Source: Mesoterricola silvestris
GTDB lineage: Bacteria; Acidobacteriota; Holophagae; Holophagales; Holophagaceae
Length of the DNA stretch: 64,000 nt
Direction of reading: 5' to 3'
NCBI RefSeq assembly: GCF_030295405.1
Contig: NZ_AP027080.1
Coordinates: 1,178,001 to 1,242,000 of the forward strand
Shown: one piece after another, positions 48,130 through 59,015 of the stretch
Layout of the letters: each line of letters opens with the position of its first letter
Numbering within the stretch: the first letter of the stretch is position 1
Made by a program: the position numbers and the translations under genes
The notes under the pieces: model-generated
What the model was told of the DNA's origin: nothing
What the model saw: the letters and a program-made list of their open reading frames with translations, nothing else
Database searches by the model: none

Positions 48130-48178
48130 ATTGCACTAAAATCGAGTGTAATAATTGCTGACATGTGCGTCAGCAATT
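48130..48178. promoter_or_regulatory. Tandem inverted repeats, probable enhancer sites for the sigma-54 activator
   Basis: Two adjoining symmetries. The right one is perfect over 10 bp: AATTGCTGAC (48153-48162) and GTCAGCAATT (48169-48178), spacer 6. The left one is ATTGCACT (48130-48137) and AGTGTAAT (48145-48152), matching at 7 of 8 positions, spacer 7. They lie 230-280 bp before the -24 element, a normal distance for upstream activating sequences bound by sigma-54 enhancer-binding proteins such as the one at 55437-57404. Confidence 0.65.
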
Positions 48179-48407
48179 GAGACGTTCATCCATCCGGGCC
48201 CCTGTAATGTGAATTTAAAAGTTTTGTTTACAATGTTTATATCGGAAAAATTCGATCCTGCCCTGGACTGGCGTCCGTCCCTGCGCGTTTTATTGGGTTC
48301 AATTTTCGTTACACATTTTCATTTCTGAGAGGCCATTCAGATCCGGGGCCCATGGGCATAGTTGATATCTATTTTTAAATACAGCAAATAGTGCGATTCG
48401 CGCGGGG

Positions 48408-48424
48408 TTGGCACAGGGCTTGCT
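48408..48424 (+). promoter_or_regulatory. Sigma-54 (-24/-12) promoter of the hpd operon
   Basis: TTGGCACAGGGCTTGCT matches the consensus TGGCAC-N5-TTGCW at every defined position: GG at 48410-48411 and GC at 48422-48423, 10 nt between. Transcription would start about 48435, giving a leader of about 68 nt before the hpdB ATG with GGAGG. This requires an ATP-hydrolysing activator, and one is encoded in the same cluster. Confidence 0.9.
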
Positions 48425-48502
48425 CCCATGGGGAGTTCCATTCCCATGCTTTTCCGGCCGATTCGCCGGCCAATCCCACATCCATCCCTATGGAGGCATC
48501 TG

Positions 48503-51217
48503 ATGCCCAAGAAACTCAAAGAGGTGCTGGTCGAAGCCGGCATTCCCATGGACTTCGAGTCGGGCGGCCATTCCCCGGCGAACCTCACGGACCGCGAGAT
48601 CGTCCAGGAGCCCCACGCCCGCGTGAAGGCCCTCAAGGACATCTTCATGCAGACGCTGTCCTCGGCCAACAACGAGTTCCCGTACTGGTATTCCCGGGAG
48701 TACTTCTCCCTGGATTCCGAGATCCCCGTCATCCGCCGCGCCCAGTCCCTGAAGACCGCCTTCAGCCACCTGACCCCGGTCATCTACCCCGGCGAGCTGC
48801 TGGTCATGCACAAGGCCCCCTTCTTCCGCGGGTCCTTCCCCATGCCCTGGCTGTCCGAGGGCTATTACATGGCCAAGGAGGACGAGCTCTACCAGGACGC
48901 CCTCAAGCGCGGTTCCGCCTCGGCCGACGAGCACTCCAAGTTCGGCACCGGCGGCGGCAACGTCACCAAGAGCTTCGGCAAGGTGGTTTCCCTGGCCGGC
49001 AAGTTCGGCATGCGCCAGGAAGAGGTCCCCGGCCTCCTGAACCTGGCCAAGAAGTGGGTGGGCAAGTCCGTGGACGACCTGGGCCACAAGTACGAGCAGA
49101 TGGTCCCCGACTACGAAGTGAAGGAAGCCCTCATGCGGAACATCTTCTGCATGTTCGATTCCGGCTACACCCTGCCCCAGGGCCGGGAAGTCATCAACTA
49201 CTACTACCCCCTCGAGTACGGCATCGATGGCCTCATCGCCATGGCCAAGGAACGCAAGGACAAGGTGGCGGGCCGCGCCGACGGCGACGGCATCAAGGGC
49301 ACCAACCGCCTGTTCAACTACGAGGCCATCATCCTGGTCCTGGAAGGCATCAGCACCTGGATCAGCAACTACGCCAAGGAAGCCCGCCGCCTGGAAGGCC
49401 TGGAGAAGAACGCCGCGCAGAAGCGGGAGTACAGCCAGATCGCCGAGCGCCTGGAGTACCTGGCCCACGGCAAGCCCCGGGATTTCCGCGACGCCATCCA
49501 GATGATCCTCACCTTCCACCTGGCCGTCCTCAACGAGGACGCCATCTCGGGCATGTCCCCCGGACGCATCGGCCAGGTGCTCTACCCCTACTTCGAGCAG
49601 GACATGGCTTCGGGCCGCATCTCCGAGGACGAGGTCATGGAGCTCCTGGAGCTCTATCGCCTGAGCATCTCCTCCATCGACTGCTTCGCCTCCGCGGGCG
49701 TAGTGGGCGGCGTGCTCTCCGGCAACACCTTCAACACGGTCAGCATCGGCGGCCTCAACAAGGAAGGCAAGCACGCCTGCAACCCGCTGGAGTACCTGCT
49801 CCTGAAGGCCGGCCTCACCAACGCCATGCCCCAGCCCACCCTGGCCCTGCTGTACGACGAGAAGCTCCCCGAGGACTTCCTCCTGCTGGCCATGGAAACC
49901 ATCAAGACGGGCGTCGGCTACCCCGCGTTCATGAACAACCAGAGCGCCATGACCTTCATGATGAACCAGTACGGCCCCGAGGGCATGACGCCCGAAGAGG
50001 CCCGCGCCTGGGCCATCGGCGGCTGCCTGGAGTCCTCCGCCTGCTGCTGGAAGCCCCTGCACCTGAACGGCAAGGAATACTTCATCCCCGGCGGCGCCGG
50101 CCAGCCCACCTCCGTGGGCGTGCACTTCCTGGCCCTGCCCAAGATCCTGGAAGCCGTCCTGTGGAACGGCGTGGACCAGCGCACCGGCCAGAAGGTCTTC
50201 GAGCCCCACAACCGCACGTTCAACACCTACGAGGAGCTGTGGGACCAGTTCAAGCTCTACTGGCAGAAGGCCGTTGACATCCTGGCCCTGACCAACAACA
50301 TCCAGCACGACATCTGGCGCAAGAACAACATGGCGGTCATCAACTCGCTCATGAAGCCCGACTGCCTGGACACCGGCCACCTCATCGACGAGAAGGGCTA
50401 CCGCTACAACGCCACCTACAACGTGGAGAGCGCCGGCACCATCACCGCCGTCAATTCCCTGGCCGCCATCAAGAAGCTGGTGTTCGTGGACAAGACCGTC
50501 ACCCTCGAGGACCTGAAGAAGGCCGTCAAGGACAACTTCGGCTTCAAGACCGCCAAGGAAGTGAACTCCTTCTCCCTGTCCGACCAGGAGAAGCGCGAGG
50601 ACGGCCCCAGCGCCTGGGACAAGCTGCACTTCATGTGCCTGCAGGCTCCCAAGTACGGCAACGACGAAGCCTTCGCCGACCAGATCCTGCTCGAGTGGGA
50701 AGAGTTCTTCTGCCCCGACTGCTCGAACTACGAGTCGCTGTTCGCCCATACGATGTATCCCTGCCAGATCTCCGTGTCCACACACGGCGCCATGGGTTCG
50801 GCGACCATCGCCTCCATGGACGGGCGGCTCGCCGGCACCACGTACGCCGACGCCTCCCTCTCCGCCTTCCCCGGCACGGACCGCAACGGCGTCTACGCCC
50901 TGCTGAACTCCGCCGCCATCTGGGACCACACCCAGTCCCAGAACTCCCAGCTCAACATCAAGATCCACCCCAGCGCCATCCAGGGCCCCAGCGGCTCCCG
51001 CAAGCTCCTGGACCTCTGCCAGGCCTACATGCGCAAGGGCGGCTTCCACATCCAGTTCAACGTCGTGGACACCAAGGTGCTCAAGGACGCCCAGGAAAAC
51101 CCCCAGAACTACCGCGACCTGATGGTGCGCGTGGCCGGCTTCACCCAGTACTGGGTCGAGATCGGCAAGCCCGTCCAGGATGAACTCATCGCCCGCACCG
51201 AATACGAAGGGATCTGA
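48503..51217 (+). CDS. hpdB: 4-hydroxyphenylacetate decarboxylase, glycyl radical large subunit
   Basis: 904 residues, as in clostridial HpdB (about 900). The enzyme converts 4-hydroxyphenylacetate to p-cresol and CO2 by radical chemistry under strictly anoxic conditions. Active-site Cys508 and Glu510 are in IGGCLES, the glycyl radical site Gly879 in VRVAGFTQY, and Ser349, His541 and Glu642 fall where the Clostridium scatologenes enzyme has Ser344, His536 and Glu637, a constant shift of five. The start is ATG 48503 behind GGAGG; upstream in-frame codons lack this. First gene of the operon, with the small subunit 2 bp downstream. Related aryl-acetate decarboxylases (phenylacetate, indoleacetate) lack a small subunit, so the HPAD assignment is strong. 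Confidence 0.95.
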   Translation: MPKKLKEVLVEAGIPMDFESGGHSPANLTDREIVQEPHARVKALKDIFMQTLSSANNEFPYWYSREYFSLDSEIPVIRRAQSLKTAFSHLTPVIYPGELLVMHKAPFFRGSFPMPWLSEGYYMAKEDELYQDALKRGSASADEHSKFGTGGGNVTKSFGKVVSLAGKFGMRQEEVPGLLNLAKKWVGKSVDDLGHKYEQMVPDYEVKEALMRNIFCMFDSGYTLPQGREVINYYYPLEYGIDGLIAMAKERKDKVAGRADGDGIKGTNRLFNYEAIILVLEGISTWISNYAKEARRLEGLEKNAAQKREYSQIAERLEYLAHGKPRDFRDAIQMILTFHLAVLNEDAISGMSPGRIGQVLYPYFEQDMASGRISEDEVMELLELYRLSISSIDCFASAGVVGGVLSGNTFNTVSIGGLNKEGKHACNPLEYLLLKAGLTNAMPQPTLALLYDEKLPEDFLLLAMETIKTGVGYPAFMNNQSAMTFMMNQYGPEGMTPEEARAWAIGGCLESSACCWKPLHLNGKEYFIPGGAGQPTSVGVHFLALPKILEAVLWNGVDQRTGQKVFEPHNRTFNTYEELWDQFKLYWQKAVDILALTNNIQHDIWRKNNMAVINSLMKPDCLDTGHLIDEKGYRYNATYNVESAGTITAVNSLAAIKKLVFVDKTVTLEDLKKAVKDNFGFKTAKEVNSFSLSDQEKREDGPSAWDKLHFMCLQAPKYGNDEAFADQILLEWEEFFCPDCSNYESLFAHTMYPCQISVSTHGAMGSATIASMDGRLAGTTYADASLSAFPGTDRNGVYALLNSAAIWDHTQSQNSQLNIKIHPSAIQGPSGSRKLLDLCQAYMRKGGFHIQFNVVDTKVLKDAQENPQNYRDLMVRVAGFTQYWVEIGKPVQDELIARTEYEGI

Positions 51218-51219
51218 AC

Positions 51220-51492
51220 ATGACGACCAAACTCAACCACCGCGACTGCCAGAACTTCGCCGCCATCGACGTGTCGAAGGGCATCTGCCACCTGACGAAG
51301 AACATCGTGCTGGCCGACACCGAGCAGTGCGAGGACTGCGCACCCCTGCGCAAGTGCTCGGGCTGCAAGCAGTTCTCCGCCACCAAGGGCGCGCTCGAAA
51401 TGGGCGTCTGCGGCGCCTCCAAGGCCGATCCCAAGTTCTTCGCCTATCCTGACATGGTCGCCACGACCTGCGAGATGTACCAGGGCCACTGA
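51220..51492 (+). CDS. hpdC: 4-hydroxyphenylacetate decarboxylase small Fe-S subunit
   Basis: 90 residues. Ligands for two [4Fe-4S] clusters are visible as His7, Cys10, Cys23, Cys40 and Cys46, Cys49, Cys64, Cys84. Spacing matches the structurally known clostridial subunit (His3-Cys6-Cys19-Cys36 and Cys42-Cys45-Cys60-Cys78) except for two extra residues in the last interval; Cys37 is additional. The subunit is needed for HPAD stability and regulation and is absent from other decarboxylating glycyl radical enzymes. GAAGGGATCTGAAC precedes the ATG. Confidence 0.95.
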   Translation: MTTKLNHRDCQNFAAIDVSKGICHLTKNIVLADTEQCEDCAPLRKCSGCKQFSATKGALEMGVCGASKADPKFFAYPDMVATTCEMYQGH

Positions 51493-51514: not shown

Positions 51515-51555
51515 CCTTCCTGGCCTCCGCGGAAACCCCGCGGGCGCCGGGAAGG
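51515..51555 (+). terminator. Intercistronic hairpin between hpdC and the transporter
   Basis: Stem CCTTCC-GGC-CCGCGG pairing with CCGCGG-GCC-GGAAGG, short loop, no T-run. It may be a partial terminator or an mRNA-stabilising hairpin that lets the enzyme subunits be made in excess over the downstream carrier. Just before the carrier gene a second symmetry CAAATG/CATTTG (51582-51598) reaches the ribosome binding site. Confidence 0.5.
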
Positions 51556-51610: not shown

Positions 51611-53029
51611 ATGGAAGAGAAGAACGCACGATTCTACGGATGGTCCGTGGTGTTCGCATCCTGGCTGGCCGTGTTCTGCCTGTTCGGGTACCGCGCCACC
51701 TTCGCCATCCTCAAGGGCCCCATGGCCGTGACCCTGGGCTGGACCACCGCGGAAGTGACCCTGGGCTACTCGCTCATGATGGTCGTGTACGCCGTGGCCG
51801 CCTACTTCAGCGGCATGATCCTGGACAAGTGGGGCACCAAGCCCGTGTATGCCGTGGCCGCCGTGTTCGGCGCCCTGGGCTTCGTCCTCACGGCCCGCAT
51901 CGATTCCCACCTGGCCTACCTGTTCACCTTCGGCCTGCTGGGCGGCATCGCCACCGGCATGCTGTGGGTCACCTCCACCGTCTCGGTGCGAAAGTGGTAC
52001 ATCGGGAAGTCGTACGCCACCATGTGGGGCTTCGCCTTCGCCGGCGGGCCCATGGCCCAGTTCGTGCTGGCCCAGGTGGTCAAGCCCACCCTCTCCGCCA
52101 GCCAGGCCAAGCTGGACGGGGCCATCCGGCCCCTGGTGGAAGGCGGCGCGGCCCTGGCCCCCAAGCAGATGGCCCTGGCCGTCGCGGCCAAGCTCAAGGA
52201 TCCCGCCGTCCTGGCCCTGCCCGACGTGAAGAGCGCCCTCCAGGGCCTCGAGCATGCCTGGCGGTACCAGATGACCATCCTGGGCGTCATCGTCCTCATC
52301 GCCCTGGTGGTGGCCGTCCTCGTGGCCAAGCAGTCCCCTGAGCGGTACGGCCTGAAGCCCTTCGGCGCCATCCCCGCCGCCCCCGGCATCGCCGCCGCGG
52401 CGGAAGTGGACTGGACCGTCGGCGAGGCCTTCTCCAAGTACGCCATCTGGGGAGGCATCCTCACCTTCCTCACCAGCATGATGGGCGAATTCCTCATCTG
52501 GACCCAGGTCGTCAGCTACTGGACCCAGGACGTGGGCTACAACCTCAAGAAGGCCACCAACATCTACGCCCTCATCGGGCTGGTGGGCATCTTCTCCATG
52601 CCCATCATGGGCAAGGTGGCCGACCTGGTGGTGCAGAAGGTGGGCCTGGAGGCCAAGGGCCGCAAGATCATGCTCCTCGTGGGCCCCGCCACGGGCGTCA
52701 TCGCCTGCCTCCTGCTCCTGGCGAGCCCCTCGGGCGACATCTTCGCCTACATCGCCTGCGTCATCTTCGCCATCTACTGGGCCATCGTCCCCGGCGGCGT
52801 GGTGGGCTACACCGGCGCCATCTACGGCCGCAAGACCCTGGGCAAGATCTGGGGCCTGGCCACCATGATCGTCATGGGCATCGGGCCCTTCCTGGGTTCG
52901 TACATCGGCGGCTGGCTGAAGGACTTCTCCGGCAAGTACACGTACTCCATCTGGTTCGCCCTTTGCGCCTTCGCCGTCTCCATCCTCCTGGCGTCCACGC
53001 TGCCCCTGCGGGCCGAGAACCGCAAGTGA
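51611..53029 (+). CDS. MFS transporter (oxalate/formate antiporter-like) of the hpd cluster
   Basis: 472 residues with 12 predicted helices, the MFS motif A region in GMILDKWGTKPV and GKVADLVVQKV, and the TFAILKGPMAVTLGW start typical of the OFA/monocarboxylate group. The start is ATG 51611 with GGGAG 8 nt upstream. Being enclosed between hpdC and hpdA, it most likely imports 4-hydroxyphenylacetate or exchanges it, or exports p-cresol; which cannot be told. Confidence 0.88.
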   Translation: MEEKNARFYGWSVVFASWLAVFCLFGYRATFAILKGPMAVTLGWTTAEVTLGYSLMMVVYAVAAYFSGMILDKWGTKPVYAVAAVFGALGFVLTARIDSHLAYLFTFGLLGGIATGMLWVTSTVSVRKWYIGKSYATMWGFAFAGGPMAQFVLAQVVKPTLSASQAKLDGAIRPLVEGGAALAPKQMALAVAAKLKDPAVLALPDVKSALQGLEHAWRYQMTILGVIVLIALVVAVLVAKQSPERYGLKPFGAIPAAPGIAAAAEVDWTVGEAFSKYAIWGGILTFLTSMMGEFLIWTQVVSYWTQDVGYNLKKATNIYALIGLVGIFSMPIMGKVADLVVQKVGLEAKGRKIMLLVGPATGVIACLLLLASPSGDIFAYIACVIFAIYWAIVPGGVVGYTGAIYGRKTLGKIWGLATMIVMGIGPFLGSYIGGWLKDFSGKYTYSIWFALCAFAVSILLASTLPLRAENRK

Positions 53030-53068: not shown

Positions 53069-54019
53069 GTGAACACCCAGCACGATCCGTCCACGCCCAC
53101 CGGGCTCATCTTCGATATCCAGGCCCACTCGGTGCACGACGGTCCCGGAACGCGCACCACCGTGTTCCTCAATGGATGTCCCTTCGCCTGCGAATGGTGC
53201 TGCAATCCCGAAGGACTTCACAGAAAGCCCGTGGTCATGCACCGCGAACAGCGGTGCGGCCACTGCGGCAAGTGCATGGAGGCCTGCCCCCGGGGAGCCA
53301 TCTCCCTGGGGGCCGACGGCCTGGAGGTCTTCGACCGGAGCCTCTGCGAGACCTGCACGACCTACGAATGCGTCAGCACCTGCTACCACGAGGGCAATGT
53401 CCTGAGCGGCAAGCTCTACACCGTGGAGCAGATCATCACCATCGCCCAGCGGGACCGGCAGTTCTGGGGTTCGGGCGGGGGCATGACCTTCTCGGGGGGG
53501 GAACCCCTCCTCCAGCGCAACTTCATGCTCCCCCTGCTCCGGCGCTGCCGGGAGATCCGCATCAACACGTGCATCGAGACCACGGCCAGCCTGCCCTCGG
53601 ACTACTTCATGGAAGCCGCGTCCCTGCTCAACTGGATCTTCGTGGACATCAAGAACATGGACCCCGCCGCCCACAAGGCGAAGACGGGCGCCGACAACGC
53701 CCTCACCCTGAAGAACCTCCGGCTCCTGGGCGCCTCCGACCTGGACTGCTTCGTGGTGGTGCGCATCCCCGTGATCCCGGGCTGGAACGATTCGGAGGCC
53801 AATATCCGCGCCACCGCCCGGTTCGTCAAGGATTGCGGGCTGGAGGTGATCAACCTCCTCCCCTTCCACCGCCTGAGCGAATCCAAGTGGCGCCAGGTGG
53901 GACGGGAGTACGCCTTCAAGGACGTGCCCGGGATGCCCCGCGAGGAACTGGCGCCCCTCGCCCAGTGGGTGAGGGAAGAGGGCATCACCTGCTACACCGG
54001 CTGGGAGACCCCCTTCTGA
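53069..54019 (+). CDS. hpdA: 4-hydroxyphenylacetate decarboxylase activating enzyme (radical SAM)
   Basis: 316 residues from GTG 53069, with AAGGAGG 4 nt upstream. The radical-SAM cluster motif Cys37-x3-Cys41-x2-Cys44 (GCPFACEWC) is near the N-terminus. A ferredoxin-like insertion with [12 protein letters not shown] and [13 protein letters not shown] supplies two further clusters, as in HpdA, CutD and Bss[11 protein letters not shown] and [10 protein letters not shown] are conserved AdoMet-binding elements. It abstracts hydrogen from Gly879 of HpdB. In clostridia hpdA follows hpdC; here the carrier lies between them. Confidence 0.94.
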
Positions 54020-54048: not shown

Positions 54049-55380
54049 ATGCGAATGTCATGCAGGACCTTTGTGACCGCTCTGTCGGCCACCCTCGCGC
54101 TGTCGGCCCAGGCCCCCAACACCCTGGACCTGGGCTTCGAGGAGCGCGTGAGGTCCGAGGAATGGAACAACATCACGGACCACAGCGACCGGATCAACGA
54201 CGGCCACCTCCACTACCGCATGCGGACCCGCCTCTGGGCCCAGTACAACATCGGCAAGGACCTGGAGCTGGCGGCGGGCATCGCCCAGGAGAACCGCAAG
54301 GTGGTGCGGCCCGACGTGGCCTACAACGGCCGCCAGATCTTCTTCGAGACCCTGTCCGTGAACTGGCGCTTCAGCCCGGGCTGGGCCGTGAAGGTGGGGC
54401 GCCAGGACATCATGCGGGGCGAGGGCTTCGTGTTCATGGACGGCAGCGCCCTGGACGGCTCCCGCTGCGCCTACATGAACGCCATCGATCTCACGCGGAA
54501 CCTGGGCACGGCCTCGAAGCTCGAATTCATCGCCATCTCCAATCCCCGCCAGGACAAGTACCTCCCCCGCCTCAACGATCCCAACGACCTGAACCTGGTC
54601 CAGCGGCTCACCGAGTGGGACGAGCAGGCCCTGGCCCTGTACTACACGGGCAAGGAGATCAAGGACTCGACGATCGACGCCTACGCCGTGTACAAGACCG
54701 AGACCAACGACTACCGGGCCCGCGCCAACGCCATGTTCCAGCCCGACCGGCACCTGGGCACCGTGGGCGGGCGCGTGGACCGCGGCTTCGGCGGCGGCTG
54801 GTCGGCCAACGCCGAGCTGGCCTACCAGTTCGGGACCCAGGCCGCCAACCCCGCCCAGAACGTCGGCTCCAAGGACATCGGCGCCTACGGCGGCTACGCC
54901 CGGGTGAAGAAGGCCTTCGAGGCCTCCTGGAAGCCCCGGGTGTCCCTGGGCTACACCGTCCTTTCCGGCACCGATCCCCATTCCAACAGGATCGGCGGCT
55001 GGGACCCCCTCTTCAGCCGCTGGCCCAAGTGGAGCGAGCTCTACATCTATTCCCAGCCCGCCGAGAAGGGCGTGGGCTACTGGACCAACACCGGCATGTT
55101 CGAGGCGGAGGTGCGCGTGACGCCCGTCCGCAATTTCGATCTGCGGGCCACCTACTACAAGATGTCCGCCATGGAGGCCCCCGCGGCCGTGGCCGGCCAG
55201 TTCGGCTCCGGCAAGGACCGGGGCGGCCTCGCGCAGCTGCGGGCCGACCTCAAGGTGAACGAAAGCTTCAAGGGCCACGTGCTCTACGAACGCCTGACGC
55301 CGGGCAGCTTCTACGGCGCCCAGGATCCGGGCTACTTCTTCCGCATGGAAGTGACCTACACGTTCAAGGCGCGGATCTGA
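54049..55380 (+). CDS. Outer-membrane channel (alginate-export/OprD-like porin) of the hpd cluster
   Basis: 443 residues with a signal peptide ([15 protein letters not shown]). The barrel opens with [16 protein letters not shown], and the long strands [22 protein letters not shown] and [14 protein letters not shown] are typical of the Alginate_exp family. It ends in the barrel strand [12 protein letters not shown], with Ile rather than Phe at the terminus. TTGGAG with 5-nt spacing precedes the ATG. By position it should pass the hydroxyphenylacetate substrate through the outer membrane. A companion like this does not occur in the Gram-positive hpd clusters. Confidence 0.85.
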
Positions 55381-55436
55381 GGATGGTTCCCGCCACGGGC
55401 AGGTGTTCCTTGAAGGGGGGTGGACGGACTGGGATA

Positions 55437-57404
55437 ATGGATCCCATGCCCATCCACTCCCCCCATGGGAAAGCGGCGTGCTTTCCCATGGTGTCCTGTG
55501 ATTGCGCCATGGACGAGGTCATCGAGCTCCTGCTGGTGAACGGCAGGACGTCGGTGACGGTGGCCGGGAGCGACGGGGGCCCCTGCGGGACCTTCGATCT
55601 CATGGCCCATCTCCTCCGCGTCCGCCAGGGCCTCGCCTGCGGTCCCGGCGAAGCCGTCGGCGGGCATCTGGAAGCCCCCGGGGAGGAGCCCCCGGCCCAG
55701 GCGGGAAGCCTCTGGCGGGAAGTGCTCCACTCCATGCTTTCGGGGACGGAAAAGCCCATGGTGGCGCTCACCGACGGCGCCGAACGCGTGCTCTTCGCCA
55801 ACGCGTCCCTGCGCGGCGCCTTCCCGGGCCTGTTCCCGGGACCCTCCGTCACCATCCCGGACCTCCTCCCGGGCCACCCCGTGGGCCGGGACGCGGACAA
55901 CGGGGCCGTGTCCTTCTGGTTCGTCCAGAACCAGCAGCGCGCCTTCATGGTCCTGCGGGTCCGGCCGGCCCTGGACGGCATCGGGGCCCTGGTGCTCTTC
56001 GAGCTCACTTCCCAGCTCAGCAAGGGCTACCAGGAGGCGCTGGACGAAGTGGACGTCCTCAAGCGGGTGCTCAACACCGTGGAGGGCCTCCAGGTGGTGG
56101 ACACCCGGGGCGTCATCACCCTGGTGAACGAGAGCTTTCTGAGGATCCACCACCTCACCCGCGAGCAGTCCGAGGGCCACCCCGTCACCGAGGTCATCGA
56201 CAACACCCGCATGCACATCGTGGCGCAGACGGGCGTTTCCGAGGTGGACGAGATCCAGACCATCGGCGGCCACGAGTACGTGGTGAGCCGCATCCCCATC
56301 TTCAAGGACGGCAAGTGCCTGGGAGCCGTGGGCAGGATCGTCTTCCAGGACTTCCAGGAGATCCAGCGCCTGGCCCTCAAGGCCAAGCGGCTCCAGATGG
56401 AGCTGGAGGCCCTGCGCAAGAGCAAGGGCAAGGCCCACGCCGACACCCGGTTCTCCTTCGAGGACATCGTCGCCACCTGCGAATCCAGCCTCCTGGCCAA
56501 GGAGCGCGCCATGATGGGCGCCCCCACCGCCTCCACCATCCTCCTCCTGGGGGAGAGCGGGGTGGGCAAGGAGGTGTACGCCCACGCCATCCACAACCTC
56601 AGCCCCCGGTACAGCAGGCCCTTCGTGCGGGTCAACTGCTCGGCCATCACCGAGTCCCTCATCGAAAGCGAGCTCTTCGGCTACGAGGACGGCGCATTCA
56701 CGGGCGCCAGGAAGGGCGGCAGGGCCGGCAAGTTCGAGCTGGCCAACACCGGCACCATCTTCCTGGACGAGATCGGCGACATGCCCCTTTCCGCCCAGGC
56801 CAAGCTCCTGCGCGTGCTCCAGGAACGGGAGATCGACAGGGTGGGGGGCGAAGGCACCATGCCCGTGGATATCCGGGTCATCGCCGCCACCAACCAGGAC
56901 CTGTGGGCCATGGTCGAGCAGAAGAAGTTCCGCCGGGACCTCTTCTTCCGGCTCAACGTCATCCCCATCGTCATCCCGCCCCTGCGGGACCGCCCGGGGG
57001 ACGTGAAGGCCCTGGCCAAGCTCTTCTGGGCCGACCTGCAGAAGACCCACGGCATCACCACCAAGTTCCTCACCGAAGGCGCCAAGCACCTTCTCCAGGA
57101 CTACCCCTGGCCCGGCAACATCCGGGAACTGCACAACGTCCTGGAACGCACCTTCACCATCGTGCGGGACAACCTCATCAGCGAGGACCAGGTGCGCATG
57201 ATCCTCCAGGGCGTGGGATCCAGCGCCGGCCACGTGTGCGAGAACGAGGACTGCCCCCTGGACGAGGTGGTGGAGAAGGCCGAGCGCCGCGCCATCGGCT
57301 TCGCCCTGGCCCGCACCAACAACAACAAGGCCCAGGCCGCCAAGCTCCTGGGGATTTCCCGCCCGCTGCTCTACCGGAAGATGCACCAGTACGACATTTC
57401 CTGA
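55437..57404 (+). CDS. Sigma-54-dependent enhancer-binding transcriptional activator with PAS domain
   Basis: 655 residues from ATG 55437; ATG 55446 is an alternative and neither has an ideal RBS. The N-terminal 180 residues are an unidentified sensory region, then a PAS domain around 205-310 ([23 protein letters not shown]). A AAA+ domain follows with Walker A GESGVGKE at 372-379, the sigma-54 contact loop GAFTGA at 419-424 and LDEIGDMP. A Fis-type helix-turn-helix ends the protein ([21 protein letters not shown]). It is expected to bind upstream of hpdB and open the -24/-12 promoter on sensing an aromatic compound. Confidence 0.93.
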
Positions 57405-57428: not shown

Positions 57429-59015
57429 GTGTCCTCATTCCTGGATGGCCTTCGGCTTCGCTCAAAATTCATCCTGATCCTGGCCACCCAGGCCATCCTC
57501 CTGGTGTCGGTGGCGGCGCTGGCCTGGCGCAGCCTGGCCCAGCTCCACCAGAGCCAGGTGGTCCTTTCCGACAGCCTGGACAAGGCCTCCCGCATCACCG
57601 CCGCCATCGGCGACGCCAACAGGCTCCGGGTGCTGCACGTGGCCATGCTGGGCGCCGCCAGGTTCCCCGACCACACCGCGAAGCTCGCGGGCATGGCCGA
57701 GAAGGTCGACGCCCGCTTCGTCCAGGAACTGGCGGATCTGGAGGCCCAGGCCTGGGGCGCATCCGACCAGGCCAAGGTGCGCCGCCTGGTGGGCCTCCTG
57801 GGCACCTACCGCAGCGGTTTCGCGGGGGCCTTCGCCGAAGCCCGGCGGGATCTCTCCCGGCTGCCCGTGCTCATGGACATCGGTTCGGCGGAACTGGCCG
57901 AGGCCCGCACCCAGCTGGAGACCCTCCAGGAGGACCAGCGGCGCAAGGCCCAGGACATCGTGGTGCGCGACACGGCCTACGCCGCCACCCAGAAGGCCAT
58001 CGTCGCCGGCGCCGTGGTGCTGGCCCTGGTGCTGGGCGTGCTCATCACCCTGACCCTGAGCCACCGGGTGGAACGCGCGGCCAAGGACATCGGCGAGGCC
58101 ATGGACGCCCTGCGCACCGGGGACCTCACCCGGGTTCCCCAGGTGCGGGGCCGGGACGAACTGGCCTTCATCGCCCGGAGCCTGGGGGAGGCCCTCCGCC
58201 AGCTGCGGGAGGATCTCCAGGCCATCGCGGTCATCACCGACCGCTCCGCCTCGGGGGCCCTGGAGCTGTCCACCACCGCCACCCAGCTGGCCTCGGCCAC
58301 CACCGAGATCAGCCAGGGGGCGGAACGCCAGCGGGAGGAGGTGGACCAGTCCACCACCGCCGTGCGGGCCCTGGCGGCCTCCCTGGCCGAAGTGCAGGGC
58401 GTGGCCCTTTCCGCCAGCACCCTGGCCTCCACGTCCCTGGAGGCCAGCGCCCGGGGCCTGGGGGAAGTGGACGCCTCCGTGGAGGCCATGCGGGAGATCC
58501 TGGACAGCTCCGAGAAGGTGGGCCGCATCAACGGCGTCATTTCCGACATCGCCCGCCAGACCAACCTCCTGTCCCTCAACGCCGCCATCGAGGCCGCCAA
58601 GGCGGGCCAGCAGGGCAAGGGCTTCGCCGTGGTGGCCGAGGAGATCCGCAAGCTGGCCGAACGCAGCGCCACCGCCGCCAAGGAGATCCACGGCCTCATC
58701 ACGGAAAGCGGGGAGCGGGTGGAGGTGGGGTCCCAGGCGGTGCGCCGGGTGAGCGAAAGCCTGGGGACGATCGAAGGCAACCTGAAGGAGCAGGCGGATT
58801 CCGCCATGGGCGCCGTGCACGTGCTCAAGGCCCGCTCCGCCGAGAGCCAGGCCATCCTCAACGGCATGGCCTCCACCCTGGGCATCACGGAGCGCACCGC
58901 CACCGCCACGGTGCAGCTGGTCTCCAGCCTGGAGGAGACGGGGCGCACCATCGAGGACCTCTCCGCCGTGGCACAGGATCTCCGCCAGCGGCTCATCCGG
59001 TTCAAGTTCGCTTGA
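57429..59015 (+). CDS. Methyl-accepting chemotaxis protein of the hpd cluster
   Basis: 528 residues from GTG 57429, with GGAG 8 nt upstream. Transmembrane helices at about 12-33 and 190-212 bracket a roughly 155-residue periplasmic helical sensor domain. A HAMP segment follows, then the signalling hairpin with [18 protein letters not shown] and [22 protein letters not shown]. It starts 25 bp after the regulator stop, so it is in the same operon. Probable chemoreceptor for 4-hydroxyphenylacetate or a related aromatic; the ligand is inferred from position only. Confidence 0.92.

Follow-up and report, generated by a model that had tools for sequence, protein, structure and literature searches.

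The element TTGGCACAGGGCTTGCT, which lies upstream of hpdB in the 64,000-nucleotide stretch of DNA analysed here (the window), is probably the sigma-54 promoter of the hpd genes and would be worked by the HpdR-like activator encoded in the same cluster; judging from sequence, we put the probability of this reading at roughly 0.85. Directly established are the sequence elements, their conservation and their co-occurrence with the activator. A preliminary description of this DNA had paired the promoter with the cluster's own activator, and the pairing is supported by conservation across loci, by enhancer-like sites and by the activator's recognition helix.

The hpd Gene Cluster

The promoter element and the genes that follow it are:

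48408-48424, + strand: sigma-54 -24/-12 element TTGGCACAGGGCTTGCT (pattern search, weight matrix, conservation)
48503-51217, + strand: hpdB, large subunit of 4-hydroxyphenylacetate decarboxylase, a glycyl radical enzyme, 904 aa (NF033715; 2y8n_A)
51220-51492, + strand: hpdC, small subunit of the decarboxylase, 90 aa (NF033716, above cut-off; 2y8n_B)
51611-53029, + strand: MFS carrier (PF07690; adjoins hpdC in many loci)
53069-54019, + strand: hpdA, radical SAM activase, GTG start (NF033717; position)
54055-55380, + strand: outer membrane porin-like protein (PF13372, Alginate_exp)
55446-57404, + strand: sigma-54 enhancer-binding activator with PAS, AAA+ (with GAFTGA) and Fis-type HTH regions (PF00158, PF02954, PF13426)
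57429-59015, + strand: methyl-accepting chemotaxis protein, an optional member (PF00015)

In a profile search the hpdB product scored 1552 bits against NF033715 (cut-off 1150). When aligned to 2y8n_A it retained the active-site residues and the glycyl loop, the residues kept being, in 2y8n numbering, Cys503, Glu505, Ser344, His536, Glu637 and Gly873. The best model for the hpdA product was NF033717 (HpdA), at 369 bits, under its cut-off of 420. The carrier presumably serves HPA uptake and/or product exchange. The chemotaxis gene begins 24 bp 3' of the activator gene and is kept in the loci L041 and L056, but not in L057; the receptor possibly mediates HPA or cresol taxis. No Rfam families were found in the cluster.

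A domain search (PF00158, Sigma54_activat, 221 bits, plus PF02954 and PF13426) and alignment confirmed that the cluster contains a GAFTGA-bearing activator. Its gene, however, is not seven genes away, as had been stated, but the fifth after hpdB (following hpdC, the MFS carrier, hpdA and the porin), about 7 kb from the element. The start codon assigned, ATG 55446, is conserved in the close relatives L041, L056 and L057, whereas ATG 55437 is not.

A Candidate sigma-54 Promoter Precedes hpdB

A pattern search of the 64-kb window with TGGCACN5TTGC returned TTGGCACAGGGCTTGCT as the only exact match, and in the 4.99 Mb genome there were five exact matches, compared with one for the reversed pattern used as a control. 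With a weight matrix that is itself approximate, as are the E-values, the element scored 19.0 bits, the best of 20 first-order Markov shuffles of the whole window reaching 17.0; the positional p value for an element 40-130 bp before hpdB was about 0.001. The exact element reported at 48408-48424 is thus confirmed as the only such match in the window and one scoring above all shuffles. The statement that it fits the consensus at all defined positions held for the core TTGGCAC-N5-TTGCW, with GG at -24, GC at -12 and 10 bp between them, but not for the longer published sigma-54 consensus (TGGCACG...), since an A, not a G, follows the -24 core. The element lies 5' of its gene and is conserved in orthologous loci, and rpoN was found in the genome. 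On the comparative evidence it is very likely to function as a sigma-54 promoter.

Transcription is predicted to start at about 48435, which would give a leader of 68 nt to the hpdB ATG at 48503 (AUGGAGGCAUCUG AUG). This leader contains a genus-conserved GC palindrome (48454-48471, core CCGGC-N6-GCCGG), whose fold was not better than those of shuffled sequences. That no second -24/-12 element precedes the later genes was borne out by a weight-matrix scan of the + strand of the cluster, in which none rose above background; the only other + strand match to reach 11 bits near the cluster, at 52951 (11.1 bits), is inside the carrier gene and at background level. Elsewhere in the same genome, an exact -24/-12 match (locus L064, 4490-4506; G000:C1:4318490-4318504) lies divergent to a second activator gene and is likely a second activator-promoter pair (lactate or heterodisulfide-type oxidoreductase genes).

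Conservation across hpdB Loci

We gathered a limited sample of hpdB loci, drawn from the family and phylum, other phyla and two additional orders. Of the 36 loci, 22 had a -24/-12 element scoring 9 bits or more at 57-130 bp before hpdB, most of them between -69 and -114; among 284 control genes taken from these loci the frequency was 2.5%, and no control element reached 16 bits. The loci bearing it include members of Acidobacteriota, Neisseriales, Desulfovibrionales, Telmatospirillum and others. Its sequence is GTGGCACGCGGCTTGCA in the same genus, TTGGCATCGGCCTTGCA in another acidobacterium (L054), TTGGCACAGCGATTGCT in Crenobacter and Craterilacuibacter, and TTGGCACGCGGCTTGCT in L079, of the Desulfovibrionales order. 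The element was found in 18 of the 22 loci with an adjacent activator, but in only one of 10 without (Fisher p 2e-4, related loci not being independent). Two acidobacterial hpdBCA loci that lack the carrier and the activator (L080 and L081) also lack the -24/-12 element and serve as negative controls. The Marinisporobacter locus has an adjacent related activator (44% identity), yet no recognisable -24/-12 element or upstream activating site (UAS). Among 250 sampled genomes of the order Neisseriales, no hpdB turned up beyond the loci already collected.

Several loci departed from this pattern in their own ways. In six (L033, L035, L044, L055, L076 and L078) the -12 box has GT instead of GC (TTGGCAYGCNNNNTGTA or close); these keep the activator and/or the -24 box, several have divergent activators, and they may represent a conserved non-canonical sigma-54 promoter. 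On a Coriobacteriia MAG contig (L032), an hpdB 85% identical to that of the window has no sigma-54 site, and either recent transfer or misbinning would account for it. The hpdB of L058 (5903-8613 and 13174-15870) is split by a frameshift, and the interval between the porin and activator genes of that locus holds a radical SAM gene and a gene resembling that of 4-hydroxyphenylpyruvate dioxygenase. Solidesulfovibrio has a second hpdB locus (L083, in G444), 58% identical, with a -24/-12-like element, CAGGCATGGCCCTTGCT, at -120.

The Activator and Candidate Enhancer Sites

In several genomes that encode many activators the hpdB-linked activator was also the best genome-wide match to the window's activator, i.e., in BRH_c32 (530 bits, runner-up 244), Telmatospirillum (488 versus 321), Solidesulfovibrio (481 versus 284) and Nitratidesulfovibrio (475 versus 255). 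It was the best by a small margin in Marinisporobacter and the second of two matches in Desulfobacterium; in Neisseriales the linked activator was again the best match, but at 267 bits only. The PAS regions of the Desulfobacterota, Telmatospirillum and BRH_c32 proteins are 44-51% identical to that of the window.

Upstream of the promoter, the following features were considered as sites for this activator:

48147-48163, strand not assigned: UAS1, candidate enhancer dyad TGTAAT-AATTG-CTGACA, 261 bp upstream of -24 (genus conservation)
48153-48178, strand not assigned: perfect inverted repeat AATTGCTGAC-N6-GTCAGCAATT, overlapping UAS1 (near relatives, but not L057, keep the inner arms)
48308-48313, - strand: UAS2, candidate half-site TGTAAC (GTTACA on the + strand), 100 bp upstream of -24

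The perfect repeat, with its 10-bp arms, was dropped as an enhancer because relatives keep TGTAAT-N5-CTGACA instead. Alignment within the genus revealed three conserved islands, i.e., TGTAATAATT(G/C)CTGACA at 48147-48163, TTCGTTACAC at about 48308, and the promoter. UAS1, kept in four genomes of the genus, fits TGTMAY-N5-RTKACA with one mismatch (background at most 0.02), and the pattern variant that admits it occurs three times in the genome. UAS2 lies in the island TTCGTTACAC, likewise in four genomes of the genus, and its position matches that of the second UAS of Desulfovibrionales loci. Paired TGTMAY-N5-RTKACA sites occur at -257 and -102 from the -24 box in L044, at -261 and -102 in L055, at -229 and -116 in L077 and at -237 and -114 in L078, and the window has a candidate dyad at -261 and a half-site only at -100, a geometry that recurs in Desulfovibrionales. 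At the level of sequence, then, candidate upstream activating sites are found 80-300 bp before the promoter. TGTMAC half-sites were strongly enriched in independent activator-group loci (for example, 5 versus a background of 0.24, 5 versus 0.27, 4 versus 0.23 and 3 versus 0.24), and none was found in five activator-less loci.

The best argument that the cluster's activator works the hpdB promoter is that these sites co-vary with its recognition helix. Most activators from loci with the enhancer-like sites have the helix GISR[PA]L[LF]Y[RK]K in common, and where the hpdB-linked activator has another helix, the sites are mostly lacking (L053, L054 and L042). In L079, whose activator also has another helix, a single dyad with one mismatch is nonetheless present, and L058, from the same family, has the promoter and no clear UAS.

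Transcript Structure

Two further features bear on how the cluster is transcribed:

51515-51555, + strand: strong intercistronic hairpin after hpdC, 17 pairs, no T-run (folding, sequence conservation in close relatives)
55410-55438, + strand: sigma-70-like extended -10 promoter TTGAAG-N17-GATAAT, before the activator gene (scan, genus conservation)

The hairpin had a z-score of -4.2, with none of 200 dinucleotide-preserving shuffles as stable; when the hpdC-MFS gap was shuffled by a Markov model, the z-scores were weak. A strong hairpin occupies the gap between hpdC and the carrier gene in 22 of 25 loci from several phyla, with a T-run in some (L037 and L038), which hints at attenuation or mRNA processing as a way of setting subunit ratios. 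The element at 55410-55438, which has the extended TG, is the sole + strand sigma-70-type match in 11 kb and is kept in L041 and L056 and partly in L057. Overall, the sigma-70 scan was near chance (2 matches versus 0.9 expected), as was the scan for intrinsic terminators (7 versus 6.5), so that the case for a promoter before the activator gene is one of position and conservation.

The preliminary description had taken the lack of a second -24/-12 element to imply one long transcript. Such a transcript, running unpunctuated from 48435 through the activator gene, is in keeping with that lack and with the arrangement of the cluster genes, which are all on the + strand with gaps of 2-118 bp, but we consider it unlikely. 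Because a sigma-54 promoter does nothing until its activator is present, a circuit whose activator gene is transcribed only from the target promoter itself could not start; a sigma-70-like promoter directly before the activator gene would solve this start-up problem. In many other genomes, moreover, the activator gene is divergent from hpdB and has its own transcript. Together with the hairpin and the conserved promoter-like element of the activator gene, this leaves the simple single transcript in doubt and the earlier claim unsupported. The sequence would fit better with hpdBC being expressed above the carrier and activase genes and with the activator coming, at a low level, from a source of its own.

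Other readings concern the promoter itself. Several sub-consensus matches to the sigma-54 pattern also occur in the window, but the chance that 48408-48424 is just another of these is close to negligible, its score being above that of all shuffles and the same placement being conserved across phyla. In C. difficile, a sigma-54-like sequence before hpdB was irrelevant in a sigL mutant (PMC7925072), and hpdB here might likewise be driven by a housekeeping promoter, with the sigma-54-like site inactive. This seems very improbable, because our scan gave no sigma-70-type match upstream of hpdB and because the C. difficile sequence has a 4-base rather than a 5-base spacer, whereas here the site and its spacing are conserved along with the enhancers and the activator. 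Only slightly less improbable is that the element is real but worked by another activator, the cluster's own serving other targets. The genome has 19 strong Sigma54_activat genes and cross-activation is possible; against this, synteny of the cluster activator with hpdB extends across phyla, the activator is usually the best genome-wide match, and the enhancer motif co-varies with its recognition helix.

Proposed Mechanism and Its Meaning

Under the preferred reading, i.e., sigma-54 control by the cluster's own activator, the HpdR-like protein would be made at a low level from its sigma-70-type promoter at 55410-55438, and its PAS domain would sense an inducer, probably 4-hydroxyphenylacetate. 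The activator would bind the TGTMAY-N5-RTKACA dyads about 260 and about 100 bp upstream of the -24 box, contact the sigma-54 polymerase with its GAFTGA loop as the DNA between them loops out, and use ATP to open the promoter at 48408-48424, with a start presumably near 48435. Transcription would yield hpdBC and then, through or past the hairpin, the carrier, activase and porin, and additional activator made by read-through would provide positive feedback.

The hpd genes, in this anaerobic soil-type bacterium as well as in unrelated bacteria of several phyla, thus appear to be switched on by sigma-54 and an adjacent dedicated activator. We are inclined to go further and to propose an old dedicated p-cresol regulator (HpdR-like, with TGTMAY-N5-RTKACA sites at about -260 and -100, and sigma-54) common to Acidobacteriota, Desulfobacterota, Alphaproteobacteria and a further lineage, with a related, weaker version in Neisseriales; the -12 box would have drifted to GT in part of these, with activator and enhancers kept, and the clostridial and Tannerella hpd genes would follow another logic. 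One enzyme would be controlled in two unrelated ways, depending on the bacterium. Formation of p-cresol matters both in the gut, where it is a uremic toxin precursor and a weapon of C. difficile, and in anoxic soils, and the analysis puts forward, for several non-clostridial phyla, a candidate regulator together with its DNA code and promoter.

Comparison with Known Systems

As far as the open literature shows, the architecture is a textbook one and the target is new. In that literature we found no paper on sigma-54 control of 4-hydroxyphenylacetate decarboxylase, and the main text of a recent broad survey of sigma-54 regulons names neither Acidobacteria nor this decarboxylase (PMC12316311). 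The activator's best NCBIfam match, at 424 bits, was NF041552 (PrdR, the sigma-54 activator of proline reductase in C. difficile), which likewise combines PAS, AAA and Fis HTH regions and serves an amino-acid-derived fermentation substrate. PrdR has a different target, however, and by the NF041552 cut-off of 795, far above this score, the two are not of the same protein family.

A glycyl radical enzyme under sigma-54 control has a precedent in the bss genes of Geotalea. The bss and hbs operons of Geotalea daltonii have a sigma-54 promoter and an adjacent enhancer-binding activator of the Fis family (PMC11497800), and like the window they join a glycyl radical enzyme operon of anaerobic aromatic metabolism to sigma-54. 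They differ in that the enzyme is of the benzylsuccinate synthase type, not a decarboxylase, and in that the activator gene is divergent there and inside the cluster here.

The hpdBCA genes of C. difficile encode the same enzyme as the window and share a palindromic upstream sequence, with induction by HPA in C. difficile (PMC7925072). A positive regulator was inferred for them, and they are transcribed from a sigma-A promoter (P1), an inverted repeat unlike those of the window, AAAAAG-N13-CTTTTT, being required for HPA induction (PMC7925072). The lack of any effect of the sigL mutation on them supports, as far as C. difficile is concerned, the earlier suggestion that the control logic proposed here differs from that of clostridial systems (PMC7925072).
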